Shown piece by piece: positions 1,629 through 55,612 of a stretch of DNA of 64,000 nucleotides. The stretch comes from Siphonodentalium dalli (lineage: Eukaryota; Mollusca; Scaphopoda; Gadilida; Siphonodentaliidae): NCBI GenBank assembly GCA_032622095.1, contig CP136068.1, positions 154,901,151 through 154,965,150 of the forward strand, in the 5' to 3' direction. Under the pieces are notes generated by a model that did no database searches, had not been told where the DNA came from, and saw only the letters and a program-made list of their open reading frames with translations. Both the position numbers and the translations under genes were made by a program. Each line of letters opens with the position of its first letter. Positions within the stretch are counted from its first letter, which is position 1.

Positions 1629-3635
1629 TCTTGACCAAATAAACGCTGCGGTAGGGTGGCGCACCCAAAAATATACTATAAAAACCGAAAACCGCATCCC
1701 TCTAGTCCGTGCGGTTGCCACAGGAGGTGGCCAAAATAGCAACCATAGCCGTTTTGGTATTTATGAACCGACTCTGACCGAATAAAAGGTGCGGTAGGGT
1801 GGCCCACCCCAAATTATCCTATAAAACAGAAAACCGCAAACCTCTATACCGTGCGGTTGCCACATGAGGTGGCCAAAATGGCAACCATAGCCGTTTTGGT
1901 AGTTATGAACCGATTTTGACCAAATAAAAGGTGCGGTATGGTGGCGCACTCAAATTATACTATAAAAACCGAAAACCGCACCCCTCTAGAGAGCCCGTGT
2001 GGTTGCCACAGGAGGTGGTCAAAATGGCAACCATGGCCGTTTTGGTATTTATCAACCGATTTTGACCGACTAACGAAGCGGTAGGGTGTCCCACCACACA
2101 TTATACTATAAAAGCAAAAAATACGCACCCCACTAGCCCGTGCGTTTGCCACAAGAGGTGACCAAAATAGCAACCAGAGCCGTTTTGGTATTTATAAACC
2201 GATTCTGACAAAACAAAAGGTGCGGTAGGGTGGCCCACCCAAATTATCCTTTAAAAACAGAAAACCGAACTGAATTCTAGCCCGTGCGGTTTCCACTTGA
2301 GGAGGTTAAAATGGCAACATAGCCTTTTTGGTATTCATGAAACGATTTTGAACAAATGAAGGAAGTGGTAAGGGTGGTCCACCACAAATTATACTATAAA
2401 AACAAAAAAACCGCACCCTTCTAGTCCGTGAGGTTGCCACAGAAGGTGGCCAATATGGCACCATAGCCGTTTTGATATTTATGAACCGATTTTGACCAAA
2501 TAACGAAGCGGTATTGTGCCCATCCAAAACTGTACTATAAAAACCGAAACAGCACCCAACGAGCCCGTGCGGTTGCCACAGGAGGTGGCCAAAATGTCAA
2601 CCATAACCGTTTTGGTTTTTATCAACCGATTTTGACCAAATAAACGAAGCGGTAGGATGGCCCACCCAAACTATTCTTAAAAACAGAAACCGCACCCCTC
2701 TAGCCCGTGCGGTTGTCACTTAAGGAGACCAAAATGGCAACCATAGCCGTTTTGGTATTTATGAAACGATTTTGACCAAATGTACGAAGCGGAATGGTGG
2801 CCCACCCCAAACTATACTATAAAAACCGAAACAGCGCACCTCGAGCCCGTGCGGTTGCCACAGTAGGTGGCCAAAATTTCAACCACAGCCGTTTTGGTAT
2901 TTATGAACCGATTTTGATCAAATAAACGAAGCGGTAAGGTGGCCCACCCCAAACTATACTATAAAAACTGAAAACCGCACCTCTCTAGCCCGTGCGGTTG
3001 CCACAGGAGGTGGCCAACATGGCAATCATAGCCGCTTTTGTATTTATGAACAACCGATTTTGACCAAATAAACGAAGCGGTAGGGTGGCCCACCCAAAAT
3101 TATACTATAAAAACAGAAATCGGCACCCTAGTTCGTACGGTTGCCGCATGAGGTGGCCCAAAAGGTAACCATAGTCGTTTTGGTATTTATCAACCGATTT
3201 TAACCAAATGAACGAAGCGGTAGGGTGTCCCACCCCAAATTATACTATTAAAACCGAAAACCGCAGCCTTTTATTCTGTGAGGTTGCCACATGAGGTGGC
3301 CAAAATGGCACCATAGTCGTTTTGGTATTTATGAACCAAATCTGGCCAGATAAAAGGTGCGGTAGGGTAAATCACCCCAAATTATACTTTAAAAGCCGAA
3401 AACGGCACACTCTAGCCCGTGTGGTTGCCACAGCAGTGGCAAAAATGTCAACCATAGCCGTTTTGGTGTCTATGAAGCGAATTTGACCAAATAAAGGTGC
3501 GATAGGGTGGGCCACCCCAAATTAAACTTGTAAATAACGCAAACTGCACCCCTCAATTCCGTGTGGATTCCACGCGAGGGGGCCAACATGGCAACCATAG
3601 CCGTTTTGATATTTATGAACCAATTTTGACAAACA
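1629..3635 (+). repeat. Satellite family A, forward arm (~143 bp units)
   Basis: About 14 head-to-tail units of 140-146 bp. Each unit runs through gaccaaataaacgaagcgg, tagggtggcccaccccaaa, ttatactataaaaaccgaaa, a gccacaggaggtggcc tract, ggcaaccatagccgttttgg and tatttatgaaccgatttt. Units differ by scattered substitutions and small indels, so the array is not freshly amplified. The arm starts abruptly at ttgaccaaataaacg near 1629. Open frames here change every few units and are repeat artefacts. Confidence 0.93.
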
Positions 3636-4911
3636 GCACGGGTTAATGGGTGCGGTTTTCGGTTTTGATTGTATATTTTGGGGTGGGCCACCCTACCACA
3701 TCGTTTATTTGGTCAAAATCAGTTCATAAATACAAAAACGGCTATGGTTGCCAATTGACAATCTCCTTTGGAAACCGCTCGGGCTAGAGGGGTGCAATGT
3801 TCGGTTTTTATAGTATAATATGCGGTAGGGTTGCCCAGGTTACCGCACCTTTGAATTGGTCAAAATAAGTTCATAAATACTAAAACGGCTATGGTTACCT
3901 CATGTGGCAATCGCACATTTTGTTTGGTCAAAATCGGTTCATAAATACCATAAAGGCTATGGTTGCCTGTTTTGCCACCTCCTGTGGCAAACGCGCGGGC
4001 TAGAGGGGTGGGGTTTTCGGCTGTTTTAGTATAATTTGGTGTGGGCCATCCTACCGTTTCGTTTAATTGGTCAAAACCGGTTGATAAATACCAAAACTGC
4101 TATGGTTGCCATTTTGGCCACCTCATGTGGCAACCGCACGGGCTGGAGGGTGCGTTTCCGATTTTTATAGTATAGTTTGGGGTGGGTAACCCTACCACTT
4201 CGCTTATTTGGTCAAAATCGGTTCATAAATACCAAAACTGCTATGGTTGCCATTTAGGCCACCTTCTGTGGCAACCGCAGGGGGTAGAGGGGTGTAGTTT
4301 CGGCTCTTTTATTATAATTTGGGGTGGGACACCCTACCGCTTCGTTTATTTCGTCAAAATCGGTTGACATATACCAAAAATGGTTGCCATTTTGGCCACC
4401 TCATGTGGCAACCGCACGGACTAGAGGGGTGTGGTTTTCGGGTTTTATAGTATAATTTAGGGTGGGCCACCCTACCGCTTCGTGTATTTGGTCAAAATCA
4501 GTTGATAAATACCAAAACGGCCATGGTTGCCATTTTGGCCACTTGCTGTGGCAACCACACGGGCTAGAGGAGTGAGGTTTCCGGTTTTTATAGTATAGTT
4601 TGGGTGGGCCACCTTACCGCTTCGTTTATTTGGTCAAAATCGGTTGATAAATACCAAAACGACTATAGGTGCCGTTTTGGCCACCTCCTGTGGCAACCGC
4701 AGGGGCTAGAGGTTGCAGTTTTCGGCTCTTGTAGTATAATTTGGGGTGGGCTACCGCTTCGTTTATGTGGTCAAAATCGGTTGATATATACCATAAATGG
4801 TTGCCATTTTGGCCACCTCCTGTGGCAAACGCGCGGAGTAGAGGGTGCGGTTTTCGTTTTTTATGGTATATTTTGGGTGGGCCACCCTACCGCACCGTTT
4901 ATTTAGTCGAC
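3636..4911 (-). repeat. Satellite family A, inverted arm
   Basis: About nine units of the same ~143 bp satellite in reverse orientation, for example ccaccctaccgcttcgttta followed by tttggtcaaaatcggttcat. The flip occurs within about 10 bp near 3633-3645 with no long spacer. The arm ends at gtttatttagtcga (4898-4911), the mirror image of the motif that starts the forward arm, so the whole 1629-4911 block behaves as one large imperfect palindrome. Confidence 0.9.
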
Positions 4912-5992
4912 ATTGCTTGGGGCTATAATTACACCGGCGTTGAGTAAAGTAAAGTTCAATAAAATTATAGTCAACGAGATTATCAATGCATTGTGTCCAC
5001 GGTATACTATACTGTTATAGCACGCGTGTGTACCGAAGATCACTGTGACGACGGTAATACAATATGTTATAGGCTGAATGCATATATATACATACTAACC
5101 TGGGATACATAGGAACATCACCTGGACCCCGGCAACCGACATCAACCCAAAAATGCGGACCCTGACCATGAAGATAGCCTTGAGAAGTCCTGCAATAGAT
5201 AACCTACATGTATACCAAATTTGGGGGGGGGGGTCCATGCTGACATAACTGGACGAAACGTAAGGTTTATAAATATGGCGAATATACGTGACTTTTAACT
5301 CACGTTATTTTAAATATGTAACATTTCTGTCCATCGAAATAATTGAGCTACATGTATGTTTTATCCAGATATATCTGAATATACTGTGACGAAAATATAA
5401 ATTTTTAACCCTACGATAGTGGTAATAAATTCCCCAACATTATTGATTTGACCCCATAATTAAGTAATTATTCACCCAATGACAGGTAAAAGAATCGCCC
5501 AACGCAGAAGGGAAATTAATATTAGTTAAATTGTTACCCTGCGTTGAGTAATAAAATTTCCCAACATTGGGTAGAATTGACCCAATTTGAGAAAAATAAT
5601 TTACCCAACAAAAAATTAAAAGTTACTGAACGTCCACGTGGTTTTAATATATGCACCATTGTGTTGGGTAAAAAAAAGTTGCCCAACACGATTTAGAGTG
5701 TAGAACGATTCATCGATGTATTTTTGTAGTTTTCAGGCAAATGTATCAAATAAATGAATAGTTTATGCTGTAGCATATGCATAATAGTCCCAGATGTACA
5801 GTAAATTAATTATATAGTCAGTGAGTAGCTTGCGTTCATGCTCCATATCAACATATTTTGTACACGATTTGTTCCACCACACGCATCGTGCTGTTGCTTT
5901 CCGTTAATTAATTTGGTTGCGTCAAGTAGATGGAAATACGTTACCTAATAAGGTAACATGTTAACGTTTACAAAGGACATCTTTGATTCCAA
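4912..5992. other. Noncoding spacer with G-run and TTGGGT/ACCCAA motifs
   Basis: No gene is supported. There is a run of 11 G at 5223-5233. From about 5430 to 5700 the motifs acccaac and gttgggt recur on both strands, including an inverted pair gtgttggg/cccaacac at 5661-5689. This suggests an old short inverted-repeat element, but no ends can be defined. The remainder is unique AT-rich DNA. Confidence 0.5.
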
Positions 5993-8900
5993 TTAATGAT
6001 TTCTATATATATTATGGATAACAGATCGTTGTTACTATTAATGATTTCTATATATATTATAGATAACAGATCGTTGTTACTATTAATGATTTCTATATAT
6101 ATTATGGATAACAGATCGTTGTTACTATTAATGATTTCTATATATATTATGGATAACAGATCGTTGTTACTATTAATGATTTCTATATATATTATGGATA
6201 ACAGATCGTTGTTACTATTAATGATTTCTATATATATTATGGATAACAGATCGTTGTTACTATTAATGATTTCTATATATATTATGGATAACAGATCGTT
6301 GTTACTATTAATGATTTCTATATATATTATGGATAACAGATCGTTGTTACTATTGATGATTTCTATATATATATTATGGATAACAGATCGTTGTTACTAA
6401 TGATTTCTATATATATTATGGATAACAGATCGTTGTTACTATTGATTAATGATTTCTATATATATTATGGATAACAGATCGTTGTTACTAATGATTTCTA
6501 TATATATTATGGATAACAGATCGTTGTTACTAATGATTTCTATATATATTATGGATAACAGATCGTTGTTACTAATGATTTCTATATATATTATGGATAA
6601 CAGATCGTTGTTACTAATGATTTCTATATATATTATGGATAACAGATCGTTGTTACTATTAATGATTTCTATATATATTATGGATAACAGATCGTTGTTA
6701 CTAATGATTTCTATATATATTATGGATAACAGATCGTTGTTACTAATGATTTCTATATATATTATGGATAACAGATCGTTGTTACTAATGATTTCTATAT
6801 ATATTATGGATAACAGATCGTTGTTACTATTAATGATTTCTATATATATTATGGATAACAGATCGTTGTTACTATTAATGATTTCTATATATATTATGGA
6901 TAACAGATCGTTGTTACTATTAATGATTTCTATATATATTATGGATAACAGATCGTTGTTACTATTGATGATTTCTATATATATTATGGATAACAGATCG
7001 TTGTTACTAATGATTTCTATATATATTATGGATAACAGATCGTTGTTACTATTGATTAATGATTTCTATATATATTATGGATAACAGATCGTTGTTACTA
7101 ATGATTTCTATATATATTATGGATAACAGATCGTTGTTACTAATGATTTCTATATATATTATGGATAACAGATCGTTGTTACTATTAATGATTTCTATAT
7201 ATATTATGGATAACAGATCGTTGTTACTAATGATTTCTATATATATTATGGATAACAGATCGTTGTTACTAATGATTTCTATATATATTATGGATAACAG
7301 ATCGTTGTTACTAATGATTTCTATATATATTATGGATAACAGATCGTTGTTACTAATGATTTCTATATATATTATGGATAACAGATCGTTGTTACTAATG
7401 ATTTCTATATATATTATGGATAACAGATCGTTGTTACTATTAATGATTTCTATATATATTATGGATAACAGATCGTTGTTACTATTGATTTCTATATATA
7501 TTATGGATAACAGATCGTTGTTATTATTGGTTTCTATATATATTATGGATAACAGATCGTTGTTACTATTAATGATTTCTATATATATTATGGATAACAG
7601 ATCGTTGTTACTAATGATTTCTATATATATTATGGATAACAGATCGTTGTTACTATTAATGATTTCTATATATATTATGGATAACAGATCGTTGTTACTA
7701 TTAATGATTTCTATATATATTATGGATAACAGATCGTTGTTACTATTAATGATTTCTATATATATTATGGATAACAGATCGTTGTTACTATTAATGATTT
7801 CTATATATATTATGGATAACAGATCGTTGTTACTATTAATGATTTCTATATATATTATGGATAACAGATCGTTGTTACTATTAATGATTTCTATATATAT
7901 TATGGATAACAGATCGTTGTTACTATTAATGATTTCTATATATATTATGGATAACAGATCGTTGTTACTAATGATTTCTATATATATTATGGATAACAGA
8001 TCGTTGTTACTAATGATTTCTATATATATTATGGATAACAGATCGTTGTTATTATTGGTTTCTATATATATTATGGATAACAGATCGTTGTTACTATTAA
8101 TGATTTCTATATATATTATGGATAACAGATCGTTGTTACTATTAATGATTTCTATATATATTATGGATAACAGATCGTTGTTACTATTAATGATTTCTAT
8201 ATATATTATGGATAACAGATCGTTGTTACTAATGATTTCTATATATATTATGGATAACAGATCGTTGTTACTAATGATTTCTATATATATTATGGACAAC
8301 AGATCGTTGTTATTATTGGTTTCTATATATATTATGGATAACAGATCGTTGTTACTATTAATGATTTCTATATATATTATCGATAACAGATCGTTGTTAC
8401 TATTGATTTCTATATATATTATGGATAACAGATCGTTGTTACTATTAATGATTTCTATATATATTATGGATAACAGATCGTTGTTACTAATGATTTCTAT
8501 ATATATTATGGATAACAGATCGTTGTTACTATTAATGATTTCTATATATATTATGGATAACAGATCGTTGTTACTATTAATGATTTCTATATATATTATG
8601 GATAACAGATCGTTGTTACTATTAATGATTTCTATATATATTATGGATAACAGATCGTTGTTACTATTAATGATTTCTATATATATTATGGATAACAGAT
8701 CGTTGTTACTATTAATGATTTCTATATATATTATGGATAACAGATCGTTGTTACTATTAATGATTTCTATATATATTATGGATAACAGATCGTTGTTACT
8801 ATTAATGATTTCTATATATATTATGGATAACAGATCGTTGTTACTAATGATTTCTATATATATTATGGATAACAGATCGTTGTTACTAATGATTTCTATA

Positions 8901-9850
8901 TATATTATGGATAACAGATCGTTGTTACTAATGATTTCTATATATATTATGGATAACAGATCGTTGTTACTATTAATGATTTCTATATATATTATCGATA
9001 ACAGATCGTTGTTACTATTGATTTCTATATATATTATGGATAACAGATCGTTGTTACTATTAATGATTTCTATATATATTATCGATAACAGATCGTTGTT
9101 ACTATTGATTTCTATATATATTGTGGATAACAGATCGTTGTTACTATTAATGATTTCTATATATATTATGGATAACAGATCGTTGTTACTAATGATTTCT
9201 ATATATATTATGGATAACAGATCGTTGTTACTATTAATGATTTCTATATATATTATGGATAACAGATCGTTGTTACTATTAATGATTTCTATATATATTA
9301 TGGATAACAGATCGTTGTTACTATTAATGATTTCTATATATATTATGGATAACAGATCGTTGTTACTATTAATGATTTCTATATATATTATCGATAACAG
9401 ATCGTTGTTACTATTGATTTCTATATATATTATGGATAACAGATCGTTGTTACTATTAATGATTTCTATATATATTATCGATAACAGATCGTTGTTACTA
9501 TTGATTTCTATATATATTATGGATAACAGATCGTTGTTACTATTAATGATTTCTATATATATTATGGATAACAGATCGTTGTTACTAATGATTTCTATAT
9601 ATATTATGGATAACAGATCGTTGTTACTATTAATAATTTCTATATATATTATGGATAACAGATCGTTGTTACTATTAATGATTTCTATATATATTATGGA
9701 TAACAGATCGTTGTTACTATTAATGATTTCTATATATATTATGGATAACAGATCGTTGTTACTATTAATGATTTCTATATATATTATGGATAACAGATCG
9801 TTGTTACTAATGATTTCTATATATATTATGGATAACAGATCGTTGTTACT
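5993..9850 (+). repeat. 42/45 bp minisatellite array (about 87 copies)
   Basis: Almost identical tandem units of aatgatttctatatatatta, tggataacagatcgttgtta and a ctatt or cta tail. Units are mainly 45 bp (with a 3 bp att in the junction) or 42 bp (without it). Because almost all lengths are multiples of three, both strands stay open for about 950-990 codons between 7049 and 10022. Rare units break the frame: an extra ta near 6368 and a four-base insertion in the junction near 6445 and 7055. Recurrent variants, such as tatcgataac followed by a short ttgattt junction near 8380, 8990, 9080, 9390 and 9480, show block amplification. No evidence that it is translated. Confidence 0.96.
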
Positions 9851-10599
9851 TTTGGGATTTGTAGCGTACAGTCTCCCTTTAACAAACGTCTTATTAATCA
9901 AATCGCTTCCGAATTACATTCATTATGTAGTGTTCACGCTCTGTGAGGTCAAAGGTCATATTTATTTTCGAAAATGTGCAAATCAAATTTATTGGCCGAA
10001 TATTTTTTGGCGAATGAAATAATTTGTCAACGAATTCCCATACGTGATAATGTCAGTTGATACATTAAAAGACTAGTAAATATTTCTGGGTGTGTGCAAT
10101 TTACCATTTGTATGTATCAAGTCATTGAGACAAATATGCCATGTCTTCTCCCTATAGCAAAGTTGTCGTGGTACTTTATGTTTGGGTTATTCCATAATAC
10201 GCACGTACATATATTCCCATTTGACTCGTTCTTGTCGCTGAAATAGCTCCATGCGATGAGTAAATCACGACAAAATGGATTTAATATATTTGTTGGAGTA
10301 TTTCCGAAAGTGCGTGCTGTCATAAAAAAAACGGGAGTCCTCGGCAACAGGGAGATCCGTTTGAGTAATCCAGTTCGAGTTCAATGACTCTAACCCAAGT
10401 TATTTTCATAGACGTTATACAGGTTCTTATATTTACCATTTTCAGACCATAATGTTGACACAAGAATTATCTTTTTATGCAGTCCCTATATATATTCGAA
10501 TTCGAAAAGATTTGTAAAGAAGTGATTCGAGTTGTTTAATTAGGCACCCCATTCGTGAAATTTAAAAAAACACCTGTTAACACCCACAATACGAGATTT
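9851..10599. other. Noncoding spacer between two satellite arrays
   Basis: No supportable gene; the minus-strand frame at 10117-10347 has no recognisable motif. A perfect direct repeat AGGTCA-A-AGGTCA lies at 9946-9958. This is the consensus of a DR1 nuclear-receptor site, but a functional role is unsupported. Confidence 0.5.
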
Positions 10600-11180
10600 A
10601 CGTTCTAATTATGTAAAACAAGAAAGAAGTGGTTTAAACAAAATAAAAACAACAATGTTCAAGGCTAGTCATTGGAAAGTTTGACAGGAAATATTCGTAA
10701 CAAACGCACTGATTTATCTAGTTTATGATCCCAATAGGTTATGTGCTCAGTAACAAACGCACTGAATTATCTACATGTAACTTATGGACTAAACTAGGGG
10801 ATGTGCTCAGTAACAAACGCACTGAATTATCTAACTTATAGACCAAACTATGGTAAGTGTTCAGTAAGAAACGCACTGAATTATCTACATGTAGCTTATG
10901 GACTAAACTAGGGTATGTGCTCAGTAACATACGCACTGAATTATCTAGCGTATAGACCAAACTAGGGTATGTGGTCATTAACAAACTCACTGAATTATCT
11001 ACATGTAGCTTATGGACCAAACAATGGTATGCGCGCAGTAACAAACGCACTGAATTATCTACAGGTAACCTATGGACTAAACTAGGATATGCGCTCAGTA
11101 ACAAACGCACCGAATGATCTACACGTAGCTTATGGACCAAACTAGGGTATGCGCTCAGTAACAAACGCACTGAATTATCT

Positions 11181-11330
11181 GAATTATACGTTCTAATTAT
11201 GTAAAACAAGAAAGAAGTGGTTTAAACAAAATAAAAACAACAATGTTCAAAGCTAGTCATTGGAGAGTTTGACAGGAAATATTCGTAATAAACGCACTGA
11301 TATATCTAGTTTATGATCTCAATAAGGTAT
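11181..11330 (+). repeat. Divergent higher-order spacer of satellite B (type copy; 18 copies)
   Basis: A ~150 bp AT-rich segment starting at acgttctaattatgtaaaac and ending at tgatctcaataagg. It includes a ggtttaaacaaaataaaaac tract and agtcattggagagtttgaca. Copies of the starting motif occur at 10600, 11188, 11956, 12728, 13910, 15751, 18168, 18941, 21357, 22130, 27070, 28899, 31033, 31680, 32453, 34060, 35828 and 36601. Two haplotypes exist, gaaagaagtgg and gaaagacgtgg. The spacer grades into monomer-like sequence at both ends (acgcactgatttatctag), so it is probably integral to the higher-order unit and not a separate insertion. Confidence 0.9.
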
Positions 11331-11955
11331 GTGCTCAGTAACAAACGCACTGAATTATCTACATGTAGCTTATGGACTAAACTAGGGTATGTGCTCAGTA
11401 ACCAACGCACTGAATTATCTACATGTAGCTTATGGACTAAACTAGGGTATGTGCTCAGTAACAAACACACTGAATTATCTAGCTTATGGTCCAAACTAGG
11501 GTATGTGCTCAGTAACAAACTCACTGAATTATCTACATGTAGCTTATGGACTAAACTAGGGTATGTGCTCAGTAACAAACGCACTGAATTATCTACATGC
11601 AGCTTATAGACCAAACTAGGGTATGTGCTCAGTAACAAACGCACTGAATTATCTACATGTAGCTTATGGACTAAACTAGGGTATGTGCTCAGTAACAAAC
11701 GCACTGAATTATCTAGCGTATAGACCAAACTAGGGTATGTGCTCATTAACAAACTCACTGAATTATCTACATGTAGCTTATGGACTAAACTAGGGTATGT
11801 GCTCAGTAACAAACGCACTGAATTATCTACAGGTAGCCTATGGACTAAACTAGGATATGCCCTCAGTAACAAACGAACCGAATGATCTACACGTAGCTTA
11901 TGGACCAAACTAGGGTATGCGCTCAGTAACAAACGCACTGAATTATCTGAATTAT

Positions 11956-12728
11956 ACGTTCTAATTATGTAAAACAAGAAAGACGTGGTTTAAACAAAAT
12001 AAAAACAACAATGTTCAAAGCTAGTCATTGGAGAGTTTGACAGGAAATATTCGTAATAGATGCACTGATTTATCTAGTTTGTGATCTCAATAAGGTATGT
12101 GCTCAGTAACAAACGCACTGAATTATCTACATGTAGCTTATGGACTAAACTAGGGTATGTGCTCAGTAACAAACGCACTGAATTATCTACATGTAGCTTA
12201 TGGACTAAACTACGGTATGTGCTCAGTAACAAACACACTGAATTATCTAGCTTATGGTCCAAACTAGGGTATGTGCTCAGTAACAAACTCACTGAATTAT
12301 CTACATGTAGCTTATGGACTAAACTAGGGTATGTGCTCAGTAACAAACGCACTGAATTATCTACATGCAGCTTATAGACCAAACTAGGGTATGTGCTCAG
12401 TAACAAACGCACTGAATTATCTACATGTAGATTATGGACTAAACTAGGGTATGTGCTCAGTAACAAACGCACTGACTTATCTACATGTAGCTTATAGACC
12501 AAACTAGAGAAGTGCTCAGTAACAAACGCACTGAATTATCTACATGTAGCTTATGGACTAAACTAGGGTATGCGCTCAGTAACAAACGCACTGAATTATC
12601 TACAGGTAGCCTATGGACTAAACTAGGATATGCGCTCAGTAACAAACGCACCGAATGATCTACACGTAGCTTATGGACCAAACTAGGGTATGCGCTCAGT
12701 AACACACGCACTGAATTATCTGAATTAT
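11956..12728 (+). repeat. ~773 bp higher-order block of satellite B (type copy)
   Basis: A block running from a gacg-type spacer to the next gaag-type spacer, with the same internal monomer order. It includes one 54 bp monomer, a tgcagctta monomer and a tgtagatta monomer. Equivalent blocks start at 18168, 21357, 31680 and 35828, each 772-773 bp long. A sixth copy starting at 28899 shares the first ~550 bp and then switches into a different monomer order near 29450. Confidence 0.8.
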
Positions 12729-15700: not shown

Positions 15701-15769
15701 CAAACTAGGGTATGCGCTCAGTAACAAACGCACTGAATTATCTGAATTATACGTTCTAATTATGTAAAA

Positions 15770-42299: not shown

Positions 42300-42441
42300 G
42301 AATCTCACATGAGTTTCTATTTTATACGGAATTTATCAACCGAGTTCACTAAATTCGATTTGAGCCGAGGTTTACCGAGGCTCAAATAGAATTTAGTGGA
42401 CGAGGTACATAAATTACGTATAAAATATCACGAGTTTGAGA
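42300..42441. mobile_element. ~140 bp imperfect hairpin element (MITE-like)
   Basis: The left arm passes through ttttatacggaatttat, actaaattcgatttgagcc. The right arm is its reverse complement with mismatches: ggctcaaatagaatttagt, then ataaattacgtataaaat. A 13 bp loop centres near 42372. No coding potential. The pairing suggests a foldback element, but no target duplication was identified. Confidence 0.6.
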
Positions 42442-42478
42442 TACCTTTTATCACATGATCAAATAAACGAGAAGCAAC

Positions 42479-43031: not shown

Positions 43032-43045
43032 GAAGCAACGCGAAA

Positions 43046-44136: not shown

Positions 44137-44497
44137 GTGTGTCATTTCTACACAATTTTGTTTAAGATCATAATTAAATCATATTGTGCAGAATGTATAA
44201 ACACTTGTTCTAAGAGTGTAAGCGCTGTTGTGCATAAGTGACATTTTAGCGCCATCGCGACTCAATTGGAAAAATCCTAAACGTGTGTGCCTGTATGAGT
44301 CTGTATTGTTGATTTCGAATATTATATTATTGACACTGAGAATGGTCGTTTCTGTACTGGGGACCTTTTCAGTATTGGAGAATTGCGAATGAAACTTCGA
44401 CGTTTGCTTTGTTATTGCTTCGATAGTTATATAAAACTGTAACGGCCAAACATGGAAACCTACGGCGGCCTGGAACCGCCACCTCCTCTTCAGTTAG

Positions 44498-44796
44498 TAT
44501 CCTGATATATCAGGTTACGTATCCTGATATATCAGGTTAGTATCCTGATATATCAGGTTTAGTATCCTGATATATCAGGTTGCGTATCCTGATATATCAG
44601 GTTATGAACCTGATATATCAGGTTACGTATCCTGATATATCAGGTTACGTATCCTGATATATCAGGTTATTATCCTGATATATCAGGTTACGTATCCTGA
44701 TATATCAGGTTATTATCCTGATATATCAGGTTACGTATCCTGATATATCAGGTTATTATCCTGATATATCAGGTTATTATCCTGATATATCAGGTT
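44498..44796. repeat. Palindrome minisatellite, left arm of element C (14 copies)
   Basis: Fourteen copies of cctgatatatcagg spaced about 21 bp apart, mostly within the 18 bp perfect palindrome aacctgatatatcaggtt or its tatcctg form, separated by acg, tat or ag. Every unit is self-complementary, so the array could extrude multiple short cruciforms. Confidence 0.95.
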
Positions 44797-44859
44797 GTCT
44801 CGACCAATCCAGAATGTCGTCTCTCATTGGCGGAGGCTTGTGGTTGGTTCCATATTAAG

Positions 44860-45380
44860 TTTGGTGACGAGGAGGATGAGTGATGTGGCATGTACATGTA
44901 GGCGATTAACCACACACCCCTCACCAAACTTCATATGGATCTTCAGGGTGACCTCTAGATGGGAGCCATCTATTTTCCCCGAAATTCGTTAGAAAACATG
45001 GCCGCCATCAGCCATCTTGGATTTCAAATTTGGATCCATTGGCACACCCAGCAGAACAAATATCGGAACAAATATTTTAAAACTTTATACAGGCGTGTTT
45101 TGGGTTACCTCTGGGGATATCAAATGTTTCCGAATTTCGTTGAAAGCATTTCCGCCATTTTGGATTTTAAACTTTGTATGACTAAATGATTTGGCACACA
45201 ATACAGACCACATCTTTTATATAGTCCTTACTGAACTTCATATGGATCTTGTGGGAGATGGGAGCCACCAAAAATGTCATTGAAAAACATGGAGGTATCC
45301 AATTATTACGCAATTCATGAAAAGAAAACATGGCCGCCAGCAGGATTTCATTCGCACACCATGCATCCCTCATTTATTAG
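44860..45380. repeat. Degenerate tandem units with an ATGGCCGCCA / CCATCTTGGATTT motif
   Basis: Three to four weak ~150-180 bp units carry aacatggccgcca...gccatcttggatttc (44992-45027), a diverged form at 45148-45171, and another aacatggccgccagcagg near 45327. Each is preceded by gaaattcgtt- or catatggatctt-like tracts. The same motif occurs in the hAT-like element at 42771-42800, so it is dispersed. Apparent open frames are not credible. Confidence 0.5.
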
Positions 45381-45398
45381 TGAAATGTTTTAAATGCA

Positions 45399-46110
45399 AA
45401 CAAGAGTTGGACTGTCGTCCGATGCATACCCCCTTGTGGATTACCGCCTAGTGTGGGCATATCTATAACTTATGACTGCTATACTCAGACAGATTGGACC
45501 CAAAAAATCAGCATTTTCATATAAACAAAGATGAATAACCTTAGAACAAAAAACAAAACAAAACAGTTGAATGTGCCATTATATGTCCTCATAGTGGTGA
45601 ACATCCATACAAAATTTCATTGAGATCCAAGTATTACTGTTCAAGTTATGACCTGAACAGACATCGGATGGACCAAACAACCAACATTTCCAGATAAACA
45701 AAGATGAATAACTCTAGAATGGAAAAGCGGAACAGAACAATGGAACCCTCTATTGAATGTCCTCATACTAGTGAACATCCATACCAAATTTCATTGAGAT
45801 CCCAGCACAACTGTTGAAGTTACGACATGAACAGACACCAGACGGACCAAAAATCCAACATTTCCAGATAAACAAAGATGAATAACTCTAGAATGGAAAA
45901 TCCGAACAAAACGATTGAAACCTGTATTTAATGTCCTCATAGTAGTGAACATCCATACCTAATTTCATTGAGATCTGAGCACTACTGTTAAAGTTATGAC
46001 ATGAACAGACATCGGACGGACGTACTGACGGACGCACACACAGACCCACGGACGGACGGACAGGTGCAAAACAGTATACCCCCTTTTGTTTTTAAAAGGG
46101 GGTATACTAA
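45399..46110 (+). mobile_element. Tandem-unit/ACGG element nested in element C
   Basis: A 5' end near caaacaagagttgg is followed by gatgcatacccccttg. Three ~174 bp units each contain gataaacaaagatgaataac, cctcatagtggtgaacatcc, atttcattgagatc and a gaacagacatcgg tail (starts near 45521, 45694, 45868). Then comes a ggacggac run (46013-46063) and a perfect hairpin gtatacccccttt...aaagggggtatac (46074-46107). The acccccttt motif near the 5' end matches the 3' hairpin arm. The architecture resembles pearl/Helentron-like elements of bivalves. No helicase or Rep coding sequence is present. Confidence 0.65.
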
Positions 46111-46425
46111 TATCATCTACAGAATACAAGCCCATTGCGTACATTATTGTAACTTTTTGACTTTCCTTCTTCTATAGGAGTCCTTTATCATTCTATTGAC
46201 AGCTCAGCATGAAATTAACACCTCCCAACGTTGAGCTACAGTGTCATTGACACTTTCATTTGAACTTATTATCTAATCATTTCCGAAGGGAACTACTCGT
46301 CAATGATTATTTAGTATAGAAAGGGTTAATAATGGACTGGTCATCGCTCAGTTGATGGTTCGGTTCTTGCTAACACTTCCATGACTGGGGCTCCTTCAAA
46401 TTTTGCAAAAACCTGTGCCAATTAA

Positions 46426-46474
46426 CTCTTTTATATATGCGAGTCTCCTACTGGTAGCCTCGCATATATAAGAG
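46426..46474. other. Hairpin in the interior of element C
   Basis: ctcttttatatatgcgag (46426-46443) opposes ctcgcatatataagag (46459-46474) with a 15 bp loop. The two arms differ by a 2 bp indel. No function is assigned. Confidence 0.7.
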
Positions 46475-46561
46475 CATACATTGGCCTAACAATATTGACC
46501 AAGAATCCAACCAACCACAAGCCTCCGCCAATGAGACGACACTCTGGATTGGTCGAGACAT

Positions 46562-46884
46562 AACCTGATATATCAGGATACTAACCTGATATATCAGGAT
46601 ACGTAACCTGATATATCAGGATAATAACCTGATATATCAGGATACGTAACCCGATATATCAGGATAATAACCTGATATATCAGGAAACGTAACCCGATAT
46701 ATCAGGATAATAACCTGATATATCAGGATACGCAACCTGATTTATCAGGATACTAACCTGATATATCAGGATACGTAACCTGATATATCAGGATAATAAC
46801 CTGATATATCAGGATACGTAACCTGATATATCAGGATACTAACCTGATATATCAGGATAGGTAACCTGATATATCAGGATACTA
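46562..46884. repeat. Palindrome minisatellite, right arm of element C (15 copies)
   Basis: Fifteen copies of cctgatatatcagg or near variants (ccgatatatcagg, cctgatttatcagg), separated mainly by atacgta, ataata or atacta, mirroring the left-arm array. Slightly more unit variation than on the left. Confidence 0.95.
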
Positions 46885-47060
46885 ACTGAAGAGGAGGTGG
46901 CGGTTCCAGGCCGCCGTACGTTTCACTACAATTGAGTCGCGACGGCGATAAAATTTGACTTATGCACAACATCGCTTACACTCTTAGAACAAGTGTTTAT
47001 ACATTCTACACAATATGATTTAATTTTGATCTTAAACAAAATTCTGTAGAAATGACACAT

Positions 47061-47445
47061 GACATATGCGTCAGTGGAATTTCTTCAACATTGAATAAGA
47101 GTGAATATGTGAGTGCATCATATATAATAGTTATTAGATGAAATGTGTTCTATTTGAGATACAAAACTCGTAAAGGTTGCCAAAGATAAAACAAATGGCA
47201 TGTTGTAACTTTGTTATAAAATGTGTTTAGTGTCAAAACTGAACTGCACATAATTGTGTAGCACAAAGTTTTAAAGCTGCTGCCAGATTTATAATATTAT
47301 CGCTACTGCGAGGTGTGTGTCTCAAATAGAACATTTCTCGTCTACTAACTATACTTTTAGTGTTTCAATGTTTTATTATGCCTTAGCCATAAATCAATAT
47401 GTAACATAAGCGCATTAGTAAGTTAACAAAATAGTATTAGTTACA
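47061..47445. other. Noncoding flank with a relic related to the 55.9 kb retrotransposon fragment
   Basis: 47055-47125 (gacatatgcgtcagtggaat, then agtgaatatgtgag) resembles the reverse complement of 55875-55945, where the same tract runs into a retrotransposon reading frame. Here the frame is lost soon after gtgagtgcatc. The remainder to 47445 is unassigned. Confidence 0.5.
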
Positions 47446-47527
47446 TCATGATGATGGTGATGGTGATGATGATGATGCATGATGATGTAGATGATGAAGA
47501 TTATGATAATGATGATGAAGATGATAT
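47446..47527 (+). repeat. (GAT)n microsatellite, imperfect
   Basis: About 80 bp of atgatgatggtgatggtgat type sequence with interruptions. The short Asp/Met-rich frames it creates are artefacts. Confidence 0.9.
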
Positions 47528-47916
47528 ATTTGTGGTTATGGTGGTATATACACTTATTTACATTGTTGGACCCCCGGTATGCCATCTATCTTCTAATTCA
47601 TACATGTGTTTACTCGTGTACATATGCTTCGCAAATTATTGCATCGCATAAATCTGATAACATTTCACTGAACATTTTAGTACTTTTAAATTAGCATCTA
47701 TAATTTCTCGTGTCTAAATAGCGCAGACTACTTCCCCATTGAACGACTTCAGTCTATCTGCCAGTTCATCAATCAGAATCACGATGATCGCGGTTGGTTG
47801 CCTTTGATTGACTCTGTTTGATTGGGCAGAGCACTTGGCTACTACAATAGAAGGTCTTGTTCTCTCACACGCAAGTTTTGTCTTGGTCTTCAGACATGTA
47901 TCTACCTGTAAATCCA
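47528..47916. other. Noncoding sequence, nothing recognised
   Basis: No supportable gene or repeat between the microsatellite and element D. Confidence 0.45.
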
Positions 47917-47984
47917 CATGTGCACAGACATGACAATTGGAACTTATTCCCTATTCCTTATTCCATATTTTCAAAAATGTCGTT

Positions 47985-49812
47985 TTCGACCGATTTGACG
48001 GCATGGTTGGGTGGCCCGCCCCAAATACCGCCTAGAAACACCCCGACCCCCCCACCCATCAACCCCGGGGGGTGCCACCCCGAGGGGGTTAAAATGGGGT
48101 ATGGACCATTTTCGAGAACGGTAAGGATTTCGACCGATTTGACGGCATGGGTGGGTGGCCCGCCCCAAATACCACCTAGAAACACCCCACCCCCACCCAT
48201 CACCCCAGGAGGGTGCCACCCGAGGGGGTGAAAATCGGGTATGGACCATTTTCGAGAACGGTTAGGATTTCGACCGATTTGTCGGCATGGGTGGGTGGCC
48301 CGCCCCAAATACCACCTAGAAACACCCCCACCCCACCCATCACCCCCGGAGGGTGCCACCCCGAGTGGGTGAAAATGGGGTATGGACCATTTTCGAGAAC
48401 GGTAAGGATTTCGACCGATTTGACGGCATGGTGGGTGGCCCACCCCAATTACCACCTAGAAACACCCCACCCCCACCCATCACCCCCGGAGGGTGCCACC
48501 CCGAGGGGGTGAAAATGGGGTATGGACCATTTTCGAGAACGGTAAGGATTTCGACCGATTTTAAGGCATGGGTGGGTGGCCCGCCCCAAATACCACCTAG
48601 AAACACCCCACCCCCCCCACCCATCACCCCCGGAGGGTGCCACACCGAGGGGTTGAAAATGGGGTATGGACCATTTTCGAGAAAGGTAAGGATTTCGACC
48701 GATTTGACGGCATGGGTGGGTGGCCCGCCCCAAATACCACCTAGAAACACCCCCACCCCCACCCATCACCCCCGGAGGGTGCCACCCCGAGGAGTGAAAA
48801 TGGGGTATGGACCATTTTCGAGAACGGTAAGGATTTCGACCGATTTGACGGCATGGGTGGGTGGCCCGCCCCAAATACCACCTAGAAACATCCCCACCCC
48901 CCCCCCCACCCATCACCCCCGGAGGGTGCCACCCCGAGGGGGTGAACATGGGGTATGGACCATTTTCGAGTACGGTAAGGATTTCGACCGATTTGACGCC
49001 ATGGTTGGGTGGCCCGCCCCAAATATCGCCTAGAAACACCCCGACCCCCACCCATCACCCCCGGGGGGTACCACCCCGAGGGGGTGAAAATGGGGTATGA
49101 ACCATTTACGAGAACGGTAAGGATTTCGACCGATTTGACGGCATGGGTGGGTGGCCCGCCCCAAATACAACCTAGAAACACCCCACCCCCACCCATCACC
49201 CCCGGGGGTGCCACCCCGAGGGGTGAAAATGGGGTATGGACCATTTTCGAGAACGGTAAGGATTTCGACCGATTTGACGGCATGGGTGGGTGGCCCGCCC
49301 CAAATATCACCTAGAAACACCACCCATCCATCACCCCCGGAGGGTGCCACCCCGAGGGGGTGAAAATGGGGTATGGACCATTTTCGAGAACGGTAAATAT
49401 TTCGACCGATTTGACGGCATGGGTGGGTGGCCCGCCCAAAATACCACCTAGAAACATCCACCCCCACCCATCACCCGCGGGGGTGCCACCCCGAGGGGGT
49501 GAAAATGGGGTATGGACAATTTTCGAGAACGGTAAATATTTCGACCGATTTGACGGCATGGTTGGGTGGCCCGCCCCAAATACCGCCTAGAAACACCCCG
49601 ACCCCCAACCCATCACCCCCGGGGGGTGCCACCCCGAGGGGGTGAAAATGGGGTATGGACAATTTTCGAGAACGGTAAATATTTCGACCGATTTGACGGC
49701 ATGAGTGGGTGGCCCGCCCAAAATACCACCTAGAAACATCCACCCCCACCCATCACCCCCGGAGGGTGCCACCCCGACGGGTTGAAAATGGGGTATGGAC
49801 CATTTTCGAGCA
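47985..49812 (+). repeat. Element D forward arm (~141 bp units, about 13 copies)
   Basis: Each unit runs ttcgaccgatttgacggcat, gggtgggtggcccgccccaa, ataccacctagaaacacccc, a C-rich tract, ggagggtgccaccccgaggg, tgaaaatggggtatggacc and attttcgagaacggtaagg. Length varies mostly in the C-run. Three units carry ggtaaatatttcg in place of ggtaaggatttcg (49395-49690), a local subfamily. Overlapping Pro/Gly-rich frames on both strands are repeat artefacts. Confidence 0.95.
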
Positions 49813-50087
49813 AGGAAATAAATGCATGGACTTCCCACACACGAGAACAAAGCCACGTCCCACGTCCCTGGTCACGACAAAATACTCCCTAATCTCAGTC
49901 AGACACGGAGTCATCAAGTACATTTCTATTCACAAGAATTACGTCGATCGTTGAAATTGATACATTGTCTGTGAACGTTGCAATGACGTCAAATACAAGA
50001 ATCTATTTCTGCTACATCAAAGGACACCGGCCGCCCTTTGATCAGAACTTGATACCGGCTGCATCAGAATGCATGACCCCAGTGGAT
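49813..50087. other. Central spacer of element D
   Basis: About 275 bp of non-satellite sequence (ggaaataaatgcatggactt to gcatgaccccagtggatg) lies between the opposed arms. No gene is recognised. It forms the loop of the 7.6 kb palindrome. The first reverse unit beyond it is internally deleted (50088-50135). Confidence 0.75.
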
Positions 50088-53000
50088 GTGGGGTGGTGGG
50101 GGTGGGGGTGTTTCTATGTGGTATTTGGGGCGTTCTCGAAAATGGTCCATACCCCATTTTCACCCCCTCGGGGTGGCACCCCCCGGGGGTGATGGGTGGG
50201 GGGTCGGGGTGTTTCTAGGTAGTATTTGGGGCGGGCCACCCACCCATGCCGTCAAATCGGTCGAAATCCTTACCGTTCTCGAAAATGGTCCATACCCCAT
50301 TTTCACACCCTCGGGGTGGCACCTCCCGGGGGTGATGGGTGGGGGTCGGGGTGTTTCTAGGTGGTATTTGGGCGGGCCACCCACCCATGCCGTCAAATCG
50401 GTCGAAATCCTTACCGTTCTCGAAAATGGTCCATACCCCATTTTCACCCCCTCGGTGTGGCACCCTCCGGGGGTGATGGTGGGGGGTGGGGTGTTTCTAG
50501 GTGGTATTTGGGGCGGGCCACCCACCCATGCCGTCAAATTGGTCGAAATCCTTACCGTTCTCGAAAATGGTCCATACCCCATTTTCACCCCACGGGGTGG
50601 CACCCTCCGGGAGTGATGGGTGGGGGTGGGGGTGTTTCTAGGTGGTATTTGGGACGGGCCACCCACCATGCCGTCAAATCGGTCGAAATCCTTACCGTTC
50701 TCGAAAATGGTCCATACCCCATTTTCACCCCCTCGGGGTGGCACCCTCCGGGGGTGATGGGTGGGTGTGGGGTGTTTCTAGGTGGTATTTGGGGCGGGCC
50801 ACCCACCCATGCCGTCAAATCGGTCGAAATCCTTACCGTACTCGAAAATGGTCCATACCCCATTTTCACCCCCTCGGGGTGGCACCCTCCGGGGGTGATG
50901 GGTGGGGGGTGGGTGTGTTTCTAGGTGGTATTTGGGGCGGACCACCCACCCATGCCGTCAAATCGGTCGAAATCCTTACCGTTCTCGAAAATGGTCCATA
51001 CCCCATTTTCACCCCCTCGGGGTGGCACCCCCGGGGGTGATGGGTGGGGGGGTCCGGGTGTTTCTAGGTGGTATTTGGGGCGGGCCACCCACCCATGCCG
51101 TCAAATCGGTCGAAATCCTTACCGTTCTCGAAAATGGTCCATACCCCATTTTCACCCCCTCGGAGTGGCACCCCCCGGGGGTGATGGGTGGGGGGATGGG
51201 GTGTTTCTAGGTGGTATTTGGGGCGGGCCACACACCCATGCCGTCAAATCGGTCGAAATCCTTACCGTTCTCGAAAATGGTCCATACCCCATTTTCACCC
51301 GCTCGGGGTGGCACCCTCCGGGGGTGATGGGTGGGGGGTGGGGTGTTTCTAGGTGGTATTTGGGGCGGGCCACCCACCCATGCCGTCAAATCGGTCGAAA
51401 TCCTTACCGTTCTCGAAAATGGTCCATACCCCATTTTCACCCCCTCGGGGTGGCACCCCCGGGGGTGATGGGTAGGGGGTCCGGGTGTTTCTAGGTGGTA
51501 TTTTGGGCGGGCCACCCACCCATGCCGTCAAATCGTTCGAAATCCTTACCGTTCTCGAAAATGGTCCATACCCCATTTTCACCCCCTCTGGGTGGCACCC
51601 TCCGGGGGTGATGGGTGGGGTTGGGGTGTTTCTAGGTGGTATTTGGGGCGGACCACCCACCCATGCCGTCAAATCGGTCGAAATCCTTACCGTTCTCGAA
51701 AATGGTCCATACCACATTTTCACCCCCTCGGGGTGGCACCCTCCGGGGGTGATGGGTTGGGGGGTGGGGTGTTTCTAGCTGGTATTTGGGGCGGGCCACA
51801 CACCCATGCCGTCAAATCGGTCGAAATCCTTACCGTTCTCGAAAATGGTCCATACCCCATTTTCACCCCCTCGGGGTGGCACCCTCCGGGGGTGATGTGT
51901 GGGCGGTGGGGTGTTTCTAGGTGGTATTTGGGGCGGGCCACCCACCCATGCCATCAAATCGGTCGAAATCTTTACCGTTCTCGAAAATGGTCCATACCCC
52001 ATTTTCACCCCCTCGGGGTGGCACCCTCCGGGGGTGATGGGTGGGGGATGGGGGTGTTTCTATGTGGTATTTTGGGCGGGCCACCCACACATGCCGTCAA
52101 ATCGGTCGAAATCCTTACCGTTCTCGAAAATGGTCCATACCCCATTTTCACCCCCTCGGGGTGGCACCCCCCGGGGGTGATGGGTGGGGGTCGGGGTGTT
52201 TCTATGTGGTATTTGGGGCGGGCCACCCACCCATGCCGTCAAATCGGTCGAAATCCTTACCGATCTCGAAAATGGTCCATACCCCATTTTCACCCCCTCG
52301 GGGTGGCACCCTCCGGGGGTGATGGGTGGGGGTGGGGGTGTTTCTAGGTGGTATTTGGGGCGGGCCACCCACCCATGCCGTCAAATCGGTCGAAATCCTT
52401 ACCGTTCTCAAAAATGGTCCATACCCCATTTTCACCCCCTCGGGGTGGCACCCCCCGGGGGTGATGTGTGGGGCTCGGGTGTTTCTAGGTAGTATTTGGG
52501 CGGGCCACCCACCCATGCCGTCAAATCGGTCGAAATCCTTACCGTTCTCGAAAATGGTCCATACCCCATTTTCACCCCCTCGGGGTGGCACCCCCCGGGG
52601 GTGATGGGTGGGGGTCGGGGTGTTTCTAGGTGGTATTTGGGGCGGGCCACCCAACCATGCCGTCAAATCGGTCGAAATCCTTACCGTTCTCGAAAATGGT
52701 CCATACCCCATTTTCACCCCCTCGGGTGGCACCCTCCGGGGGTGATGGGTGGGGGTGGGGTGTTTCTAGGTGGTATTTGGGGCGGACCACCCACCCATGC
52801 CGTCAAATCGGTCGAAATCCTTACCGTTCTCGAAAATGGTCCATACCCCATTTTCACCCCCTCGGGATGGCACCCTCCGGGGGTAATGGGTGGGGTGGGG
52901 TGTTTCTAGGTGGTATTTGGGGCGGGCCACCCACCCATGCCGTCAAATCGGTCGAAATCCTTACCGTTCTCGAAAATGGTCCATACCCCATTTTCACCCC

Positions 53001-55464
53001 CTCGGGGTGGCACCCTCCGGGGGTGATGTGTCGGGGTGGGGATGTTTCTAGGTGGTATCTGGGCGGGCCACCCACCCATGCCGTCAAATCGGTCGAAATC
53101 CTTACCGTTCTCGAAAATGGTCCATACCCCATTTTCACCCCCTCGGGGTGGCACCCTCCGGGGTGATGGGTGGGGGTGGGGTGTTTCTATGTGGTATTTG
53201 GGGCGGGCCACCCACCCATGCCGTCATATCGGTCGAAATCCTTACCGTTCTCGAAAATGGTCCATACCCCCATTTTCACCCCCTCGGGGTGGCACCCTCC
53301 GGGGGTGATGGGTGGGGGACGGGGGTGTTTCTAGGTGGTATTTGGGGCGGGCCACCCACCCATGCCGTCAAATCGGTCGAAATCCTTACCGTTCTCGAAA
53401 ATGGTCCATACCCCATTTTCACCCCCTCGGGGTGGCACCCCCCGGGGGTGATGGGTGGGGGGTGGAGTGTTTCTAGGTGGTATCTGGGGCGGGCCACCCA
53501 GCCATGCCGTCAAATCGGTCAAAATCCTTACCGTTCTCGAAAATGGTCCATACCCCATTTTCACCCCCTCGGGGTGGCACCCTCCGGGGGTGATGGGTGG
53601 GGGAAGGGGGTGTTTCTAGGTGGTATTTGGGGCGGGCCACCCACCCATGCCGTCAAATCGGTCGAAATCCTTACCGTTCTCGAAAATGGTCCATACCCCG
53701 TTTTCACCCCCTCGGGTGGCACCCCCCGGGGGTGATGGGTGGGGGTGGGGTGTTTCTAGGTGGTATTTGGGGCGGGCCACCCACCCATGCCGTCAAATCG
53801 GTCGAAATCCTTACCGTTCTCGAAAATGGTCCATACCCCATTTTCACCCCCTCGGGGTGGCACCCTCCGGGGGTGATGGGTGGGGATGGGGTGTTTCTAG
53901 GTGGTATTTGGGGCGGGCCACCCACCCATGCCGTCAAATCGGTCGAAATTCTTACCGTTCTCGAAAATGGTCCATACCCCATTTTCACCCCCTCGGGGTG
54001 GCACCCTCCGGGGTGATGGGTTGGGGGTGGGGTGTTTCTAGGTGGTATTTGGGGAGGGCCACCCTCCCATGCCGTCAAATCGGTCGAAATCCTTACCGTT
54101 CTCGAAAATGGTCCATACCCCATTTTCACCCCCTCGGGGTGGCACCCCCGGCGGTGATGGGGTGTTTCTAGGTGGTATTTGGGGCGGGCCACCCATCCAT
54201 GCCGTCAAATTGGTCGAAATCCTTACCGTTCTCGAAAATGGTCCATACCCCATTTTCACCCCCTCGGGGTGGCACCCCCCGGGGTGATGGGTGGGGGGTG
54301 GAGTGTTTCTAGGTGGTATTTGGGGCGGGCCACCCACCCATGCCGTCAAATCGGTCAAAATCCTTACCGTTCTCGAAAATGGTCCATACCCCATTTTCAC
54401 CCCCTCGGGGTGGCACCCTCCGGGGTGATGGGTGGGGGAAGGGGGTGTTTCTAGGTGGTATTTGGGGCGGGCCACCCACCCATGCCGTCAAATCGGTCGA
54501 AATCCTTACCGTTCTCGAAAATGGTCCATACCCCGTTTTCACCCCCTCGGGTGGCACCCCCCGGGGGTGATGGGTGGGGGTGGGGTGTTTCTAGGTGGTA
54601 TTTGGGGCGGGCCACCCACCCATGCCGTCAAATCGGTCGAAATCCTTACCGTTCTCGAAAATGGTCCATACCCCATTTTCACCCCCTCGGGGTGGCACCC
54701 TCCGGGGGTGATGGGTGGGGATGGGGTGTTTCTAGGTGGTATTTGGGGCGGGCCACCCACCCATGCCGTCAAATCGGTCGAAATTCTTACCGTTCTCGAA
54801 AATGGTCCATACCCCATTTTCACCCCCTCGGGGTGGCACCCTCCGGGGTGATGGGTTGGGGGTGGGGGTGTTTCTAGGTGGTATTTGGGGAGGGCCACCC
54901 TCCCATGCCGTCAAATCGGTCGAAATCCTTACCGTTCTCGAAAATGGTCCATACCCCATTTTCACCCCCTCGGGGTGGCACCCCCGGCGGTGATGGGGTG
55001 TTTCTAGGTGGTATTTGGGGCGGGCCACCCATCCATGCCGTCAAATTGGTCGAAATCCTTACCGTTCTCGAAAATGGTCCATACCCCATTTTCACCCCCT
55101 CGGGGTGGCACCCCCGGGAGTGATGGGTGGGGGTGGGGGTGTTTCTAGGTGGTATTTGGGGCGGGCCACCCACCCATGCCGTCAAATCGGTCGAAATCCT
55201 TACCGTTCTCGAAAATGGTCCATACCCCATTTTCACCCCCTCGGGGTGGCACCCTCCGGGGGTGATGGGTGGGGGTGTTTCTAGGTGGTATTTGGGGCGG
55301 GCCACCCACCCATGCCGTCAAATCGGTCGAAATCCTTACCGTTCTCAAAAATGGTCCATACCCCATTTTCACCCCCGGGGGTGATGGGTGGGGGGTCGGG
55401 GTGTTTCTAGTCGGTATTTGGGGCGGGCCACCCAACCATGGCGTCAAATCGGTCGAAAGCGACA
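50088..55464 (-). repeat. Element D inverted arm (~141 bp units, about 38 copies)
   Basis: The forward-arm unit in reverse complement: gtttctaggtggtatttggg, gcgggccacccacccatgcc, gtcaaatcggtcgaaatcc, ttaccgttctcgaaaatggt, ccataccccattttcacccc. It is more homogeneous than the forward arm. Variation is concentrated in the G-rich tract around gatgggtggggg. Confidence 0.95.
53500..55115 (-). repeat. ~835 bp (six-unit) duplication inside the inverted arm of D
   Basis: Six consecutive units at about 53500-54280 recur in the same order at about 54335-55115. Shared private variants are the gggggaagggggtg unit, the cataccccgttttc unit, gggatggggtg, aaattcttaccg, ggggagggccaccctccc and the short cccccggcggtgatgggg unit. 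The copies differ by a base or two in G-runs. Confidence 0.85.
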
Positions 55465-55612
55465 TTTTTGAAAATAAGGAATAAGGAATAGGGAATAAGT
55501 TCCAATTGTCATGTCTGTCATGTGCGTGTTATCACGACAGGCAAGTAAATTTGTATAATGTCAGTCTATAATTATATCATGTATATCTACGAATAATATA
55601 ATGTCAGGTATA

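Follow-up and report, generated by a model that had tools for sequence, protein, structure and literature searches.

Satellite arrays A and D of the scaphopod Siphonodentalium dalli as arms of two related foldback-type DNA transposon families

The locus

The window, that is, the whole stretch of 64,000 nucleotides analyzed here, lies at C8:154901151-154965150 in the genome of the scaphopod Siphonodentalium dalli (2.23 Gb, 9 contigs; a single assembly was used throughout). It contains two loci, A and D, at which a sequence-only reading had described two opposed tandem arms, and both pairs of arms are indeed present (A, 1631-4908; D, 47984-55458). The features of the two loci are collected in Table 1. 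The A copy is old and its right end is gone; no right terminal inverted repeat (TIR) was found in the window beyond 4908. D is a younger insertion. Both copies are non-autonomous.

Table 1. Features of the A and D loci, in positions of the window
Feature	Position	Strand	Remark
A left TIR	1570..1630	+	differs from young A TIRs at 5 of 56 bases (old copy)
A left arm	1631..3630	+	~14 tandem units of 142-143 bp
A right arm, inverted	3632..4908	-	irregular to ~3918; ~7 units, best resolved at 3919-4908
D target-site duplication, left copy	47917..47923		7 bp; empty sites
D left TIR	47924..47983	+	40 scored genome matches
D left arm	47984..49810	+	~13 units of 140-141 bp
D core remnant	49811..50130		among the matches listed, 119 bp correspond to the L004 D core at 97%
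D right arm, inverted	50131..55458	-	~38 units
D right TIR	55459..55518	-	inverted partner of 47924-47983
D target-site duplication, right copy	55519..55525		7 bp; empty sites

The window has further repeats of its own. Between 44138 and 47059 lies another inverted element, in which a palindromic minisatellite of 21-22 bp forms opposed arms (44493-44796 and 46561-46886), with a 131-nt inverted repeat (94%) on their outer side; of 40 genome matches scored for the end of this element, most begin a few bases from 44138. There are also two long direct arrays, one of 45-bp units (5992-9850, ~88 copies) and one of 60-bp units (10735-38615, ~470 copies), and neither has an inverted partner in the tandem-repeat table.

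Homology of the A and D units

For each satellite a consensus of 143 bp was built, using 120 monomers sampled from 172 at 7 loci for A and 120 sampled from 164 in 9 records from 6 loci for D. The monomers used for both came from copies elsewhere in the genome. The two consensuses agree in 86 of 148 alignment columns, and the global score of 30 exceeds everything obtained from 1000 dinucleotide shuffles (mean -30.2, SD 10.6, maximum 14), as does the local score of 47 (mean 19.8, SD 3.0, maximum 34). The earlier claim that the A and D units align along their length is thereby confirmed, and the matching blocks that had been quoted for it are present: ggtggcccaccccaaat of the A unit and ggtggcccgccccaaat of the D unit differ at 1 of 17 positions. 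A conserved block within the units is GGGTGGCCCRCCC. The apparent conservation at the start of the unit is inflated, because the monomers were chosen with an anchor at that end. As DNA, the hairpins of the units are unremarkable (z -1.6 for A and -0.5 for D).

To judge from this alignment, the units of A and D are homologous. The two are sister families, which have diverged in sequence and base composition and have kept the same plan.

Short terminal inverted repeats outside the arrays

Where do the elements end? The sequence-only reading had let both arrays begin and end at ttgacc and ttcgacc, within the unit. The elements do not end there, since in both A and D elements a short unique TIR of ~60 bp flanks the arrays on the outside. 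The arms form the inner portion of long TIRs, and it is at the short unique TIR that the element ends. This TIR begins ACAGACATGACAATTGG in D (47924-47983 and 55459-55518) and ACTACGGTGACATCGG in young copies of A. The two are related, with a local score of 52 compared with a maximum of 28 in 500 shuffles, and have in common the stretch ACTTATTCCC..TTCCTTATTCCTTATT; a C or G precedes ACTTATTCCC in TIRs at 4 sites only.

The A TIR pattern occurs at 251 genome sites when up to 2 mismatches in 26 bases are allowed, and the reversed-pattern control at 0. For the D TIR, the 39 scored matches besides the window's own begin at query positions 2-5 and so share one end to within three bases. The TIR was also considered as the source of the unit, an idea that was dropped: TIR and unit matched no better than shuffles in three of four comparisons, and the fourth, of the D TIR with the reversed D unit, gave a weak score of 21 (shuffle mean 14.3, maximum 22).

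Target-site duplications and empty sites

Insertions of A are accompanied by 8-bp duplications. Among 18 TIR pairs, the two flanking copies agree at 8/8 positions in 14, at 7/8 in two, at 6/8 in one and at 3/8 in one; at a single site, 7/8 or better is expected by chance with a probability of 0.0004. The 18 pairs are made up of 13 picked from the TIR pattern list and 5 array loci, and the right TIRs of L010 and L011, which are altered, were read by eye. L014-L019 and L021 stand outside the count, the stretches fetched for them having no complete TIR pair. The pair that matches at 3/8 (C2:98864542) may consist of the TIRs of two different copies. For D, seven pairs including that of the window gave exact duplications of 9, 9, 8, 8 and 7 bp and one of 9 bp with an extra base; the seventh pair (L001) has no exact duplication.

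The joined flanks of 18 insertions were then searched in one query, with the best 40 candidates scored. Uninterrupted paralogous empty sites appeared for 4 of the 18, namely 26 for insertion A1, 10 for the window D, 3 for D2 and 1 for D1; for the other 14, a full empty site was not found among the best 40 candidates scored. Of the A1 sites, 14 of 26 are at 100% over 150 bases and 3 of 26 are 152 bases long, and the 10 sites of the window D are at 97-99%. With its empty sites and its 7-bp duplication, the window D is therefore an insertion into repeated sequence. At L027, an A copy of only ~0.27 kb has a perfect 8-bp duplication, which means that long arms are unnecessary for movement.

TIRs, target-site duplications and paralogous empty sites together demonstrate transposition. 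They support what had been suggested from the window, a mobile element family whose body is an inverted tandem array.

Two loci illustrate the surroundings of such insertions. At C5:128478041-128487883 a D copy has inserted beside a copy of the polyprotein gene described below, and its empty site is a stretch beside a second copy of that gene, ~9 kb off. On C9, one A insertion is found twice, with an identical flank and in opposite directions, ~110 kb apart (L020, C9:213063300; L021, C9:213173700); its twofold, opposed occurrence indicates that the locus was duplicated and inverted.

Orientation, phase and drift of the arms

Another question concerns the arrangement of the arms across the genome. 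Within 20 kb, adjacent A TIRs (100 of the 251 sites were listed) form 16 convergent pairs, 0 divergent ones and 3 on the same strand, and adjacent D TIRs (41 sites, being the 40 scored matches and the window's right end) form 8, 0 and 3. Opposite-facing neighbors among the listed sites of both families are thus convergent in 24 cases and divergent in 0. These convergent pairs take in 32 of the 100 listed A sites and 16 of the 41 D sites. Pairing does not extend to the whole of either list: a convergent partner within 20 kb is lacking for 68 of the 100 A sites and for 25 of the 41 of D; the missing partners may be lost, changed or unlisted. Among the 12 A array loci retrieved, six are two-armed and six one-armed within the stretch taken (L015-L019 and L021), and L016 has two TIR-plus-array blocks in the same direction.

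Phase was tested at 11 loci (8 A and 3 D, with the two window copies among them); the outer ends of both arms always lie at most 3 bases from unit phase 1. That the outer boundary falls at the same phase of the unit had been noticed at the two window loci, and neither random boundary phase nor an absence of inverted pairing was encountered at the loci tested. The inner ends of the A arms vary in phase among the 8 loci, with the right arm beginning at phase 79 in three, and the arms meet within 13 bases in six of the 8. The inner ends in D were left unplaced by the script because D units match both strands.

The outer phase is fixed because unit 1 is joined to the TIR; consequently, it is no evidence for recombination. 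The simplest reading is that unit 1 travels with the TIR to which it is fixed, and that cores are lost by internal deletion. When the first 8 units or fewer of each arm are compared, the likeness among left-arm monomers is 92% in the window D and 93-98% in other copies, and monomers of different loci are 94% alike. A mirror order of the monomers in the two arms is weakly supported, with p<0.05 at 5 of 14 loci (L001 was left out, having too few monomers).

Cores of the elements

The full layout is that of a TIR of ~60 bp, arms, and a core of 0 to ~7 kb. D cores of 4-7 kb are common to the copies, and in the matches listed their identity is mostly 91-98%, falling to 87% in one stretch. No gene was recognized among the ORFs listed for L003, L004, L006 and L008; two of these ORFs (one from L006, one from L008) gave nothing over the cut-off against Pfam, and tblastn found no match to the polyprotein in these four cores or in L044. 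Short stretches are common to A and D cores, for example 73 bp at 84% and 78 bp at 77%.

Among A cores at least two kinds can be told apart. In the first (L026:900-8390 and L024:5340-7440), amplified 84-bp repeats read as degenerate C2H2 zinc fingers; against PF13465 they reach E 3e-9 and 37 bits, below the cut-off of 40. The second kind contains a broken polyprotein gene (L022/L023, L042 and L043), of which remnants are seen in L014, L017, L018 and L048. At L048, a 362/714-bp tandem array (5389-9001) directly follows a compact A-type element that has two units and the polyprotein gene only. No recognized transposase was found inside the A or D family.

A helicase-containing polyprotein gene

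The first part of the polyprotein (P0001) has 149 genome matches, which were condensed by hand to 101 loci. The gene lies within 20 kb of A TIRs at 20 of the 100 sites listed (16 loci), in all cases on the inner side and in none outside. Within 10 kb inside A TIRs, 18 occurrences were seen and 0.05 expected by chance, and for 10 sites the match is placed 1.1-2.1 kb in from the TIR and points inward. The two hits "inside" D TIRs are the gene copies that flank one D insertion. The order of the gene is a Rho_N-like part, an uncharacterized middle, Walker A, a Walker B region and a C-terminal part; the polyprotein also has a CxxC region. The reading frames of all copies seen in A elements are broken by stops or frameshifts.

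A relative of this gene, L056 (C1:168699500-168707500), was chosen by eye; it is on the P0001 list and among the AAA_30 matches of the genome (57 matches; 58 of 280 candidates scored). Its open segment of 313 residues scores 42.9 bits for AAA_30 (cut-off 27) and 36.4 for AAA_19 (cut-off 25.1), and among the PHROGs it matches 'exonuclease V' (E 1.4e-9) and 'Dda-like helicase' (E 1.6e-7). On account of these Pfam and PHROG matches, it is regarded as an SF1 RecD/Dda-like helicase. Nothing significant came from solved structures, the best being the conjugation protein TraI (E 0.23) and RecD (E 0.34), and no satellite arms were seen in the 8 kb of L056. The helicase segments of A copies are homologous to L056 via shared queries, and taken alone they fall below the Pfam cut-off.

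No nuclease, integrase or polymerase domain was found in the polyprotein, and no viral relatives of it in IMG/VR. Polymerase-B-like motifs picked out by eye in its middle part were dropped, as Pfam, PHROGs, PDB and a genome-wide search with PF03175 gave no support. That search (69 of 1596 candidates scored) returned 149 matches, condensed by hand to 69 loci, with 0 inside listed A or D TIRs, 0 within 20 kb of polyprotein loci, and one outside an A TIR. The DNA_pol_B_2 matches at these 69 loci, among those scored, have long open frames, often of ~950 or 1310-1330 residues, which suggests numerous well-preserved Polinton-like elements in the genome.

A third family with 364-bp units

The same gene also occurs between arms of another kind. 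At L045 it is flanked by 364-bp units in inverted arrays, at 294-1511 and 5398-6158. Convergent arms of this unit are present at C5:156336439-156338559 and C9:167668640-167672680, the latter with an inverted repeat of ~400 bp or more outside the array, and the unit is found as well in single-direction arrays, e.g., C9:38526490-38535148. This is a third family, with the same layout as A and D. No satellite arms were seen in the stretches fetched for the polyprotein loci L046, L047, L049, L050 and L051; in L047 part of the gene is present a second time in inverted orientation, and L051 has a 52-bp inverted repeat.

Discussion

A and D are almost certainly two related families of foldback-type DNA transposons, built as TIR, direct arm, core, inverted arm and TIR. 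A transposase supplied in trans would bind the TIR and move the whole element, and the repeated sites in the units perhaps help it to bind. Afterward, arm length would drift by unequal exchange or slippage, and incomplete repair may delete cores and join the arms at varied phases.

The two families are filed here as foldback-type TIR transposons, with the superfamily left unassigned. They have the opposed tandem repeats in long inverted repeats, the duplication and the empty sites (4 of 18) by which the foldback class is known. They have both the TIRs and the duplications that Helitrons and Helentrons lack. Polintons (Mavericks) make 6-bp duplications, and those of A and D are of 7-9 bp. With regard to the 8-11 bp of Mutator, A has 8 bp and D 7-9 bp, one D copy being below the range; such a size is not diagnostic, and it is common to other superfamilies. 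Transposons with satellite-armed foldback structure are a known but uncommon kind. A and D are counted as a variant because relatives of A carry a helicase-containing gene, and the presence of such a gene is not usual for this kind.

Several known systems are close to A and D. Foldback elements derive from several superfamilies (PMC3169594, PMC4079207). Tetris, from Drosophila virilis, has long TIRs with an outer unique domain and inner variable tandem repeats, 8-10 bp duplications, a non-coding core and a link to satellite DNA, and no autonomous copy of it is known (PMC4079207). Compared on layout only, it resembles A and D in its outer unique TIR and inner tandem repeats; its unit is ~220 bp, whereas theirs is 141-143 bp (PMC4079207). 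Unlike in Tetris as described there, two related families are found here, together with a helicase-type gene in A cores.

Tm1, a Mutator/foldback element of root-knot nematodes, has composite TIRs of variable length with internal repeats, and duplications of 8-10 bp, mostly 9 (PMC3169594). The composite, repeat-containing TIRs and the duplication size are like those of A and D, but the repeat motif is ~14 bp instead of 141-143 bp, and Tm1-A encodes a Phantom-type MULE transposase, whereas no scored MULE match lies near the listed A and D TIRs (PMC3169594 for Tm1). In Galileo, of the P superfamily, the TIRs are foldback-like and internal tandem repeats hold extra binding sites for the transposase, which is of the P-type THAP kind (PMC3688188); by analogy, the A and D units may have that role. 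Rehavkus, related to MULEs, resembles A and D in duplication size (9 bp) and in a tandem repeat near a TIR, but its minisatellite stands only before the 3' TIR, and its MULE-related transposase has a PHD finger (PMC6446971). The Cg_HINE Helentrons of the oyster, for which a joined-flank empty-site test was also used, share with A and D the spread of satellite-like arrays by a mobile element; they differ in having a central array between two modules with subterminal inverted repeats, and no target-site duplication was found for them (PMC7492417).

Given these likenesses, are A and D themselves Mutator foldback elements, driven by a MULE transposase like Tm1 or FARE? This is a lesser possibility, to be entertained tentatively. 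Duplications of 7-9 bp, long composite TIRs and foldback structure recall Tetris and Tm1, and MULE-domain matches are many in the genome (150 scored); however, none of the 150 scored PF10551 matches (813 candidates) comes within 20 kb of any A TIR listed (100 of 251), of the 40 of D or of the 101 loci of the polyprotein.

With about the same likelihood, the polyprotein may be the elements' own gene for replication or transposition, which would make A a helicase-coding TIR class apart from Mutator. Its strictly inner position at 20 of the 100 listed A TIR sites, its inward course from 1.1-2.1 kb inside the TIR at 10 of them, the helicase domain over the cut-off in L056 and the gene between the 364-bp arms of L045 all argue for this. 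On the other hand, every A copy seen is interrupted by stops or frameshifts, no nuclease or integrase domain was recognized, six polyprotein loci (L046, L047, L049, L050, L051 and L056) lack satellite arms in the stretch fetched, and 0 of the 5 D cores examined (L003, L004, L006, L008 and L044) match the polyprotein. In the literature, at the level of titles and the beginnings of abstracts, no helicase-coding foldback class was recognized.

Rather unlikely is a third possibility, in which an ancestral A element took up the gene a single time as cargo. Some copies of the gene do lack arms in the stretch fetched for them, and the degenerate zinc-finger-like repeats in the A cores of L026 and L024 imply that A elements take up foreign coding sequence; against a single capture by A stands the polyprotein within an element with different, 364-bp arms. 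Finally, that ordinary satellites expanded and became inverted in place, without transposition, is scarcely credible and is ruled out for the loci with duplications and empty sites: six of the 12 fetched A array loci are one-armed and many listed TIR sites have no listed partner, but several one-armed stretches ended within the array or short of the other end, and the TIRs with duplications, the empty paralogous sites and the 24 convergent pairs versus 0 divergent speak against it.

A and D are thus best seen as foldback-type families, and a wider reading of them can be put forward, albeit a doubtful one. A, D and the 364-bp family might form an undescribed class of TIR transposons in this animal lineage, whose autonomous members would encode one long protein (Rho_N-like start, uncharacterized middle and SF1 RecD/Dda-like helicase) and whose ends would expand to opposed satellite arms, serving as multiple sites for binding or replication.

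These families offer many datable copies, in which the steps from TIR to satellite can be read from the TIRs, the duplications and the phases of the junctions. That the same plan is found in two families diverged in sequence and composition suggests a function for the repeated unit. Should the helicase gene indeed belong to them, foldback structure would reach beyond the relatives of Mutator and P, to a class of replication type.
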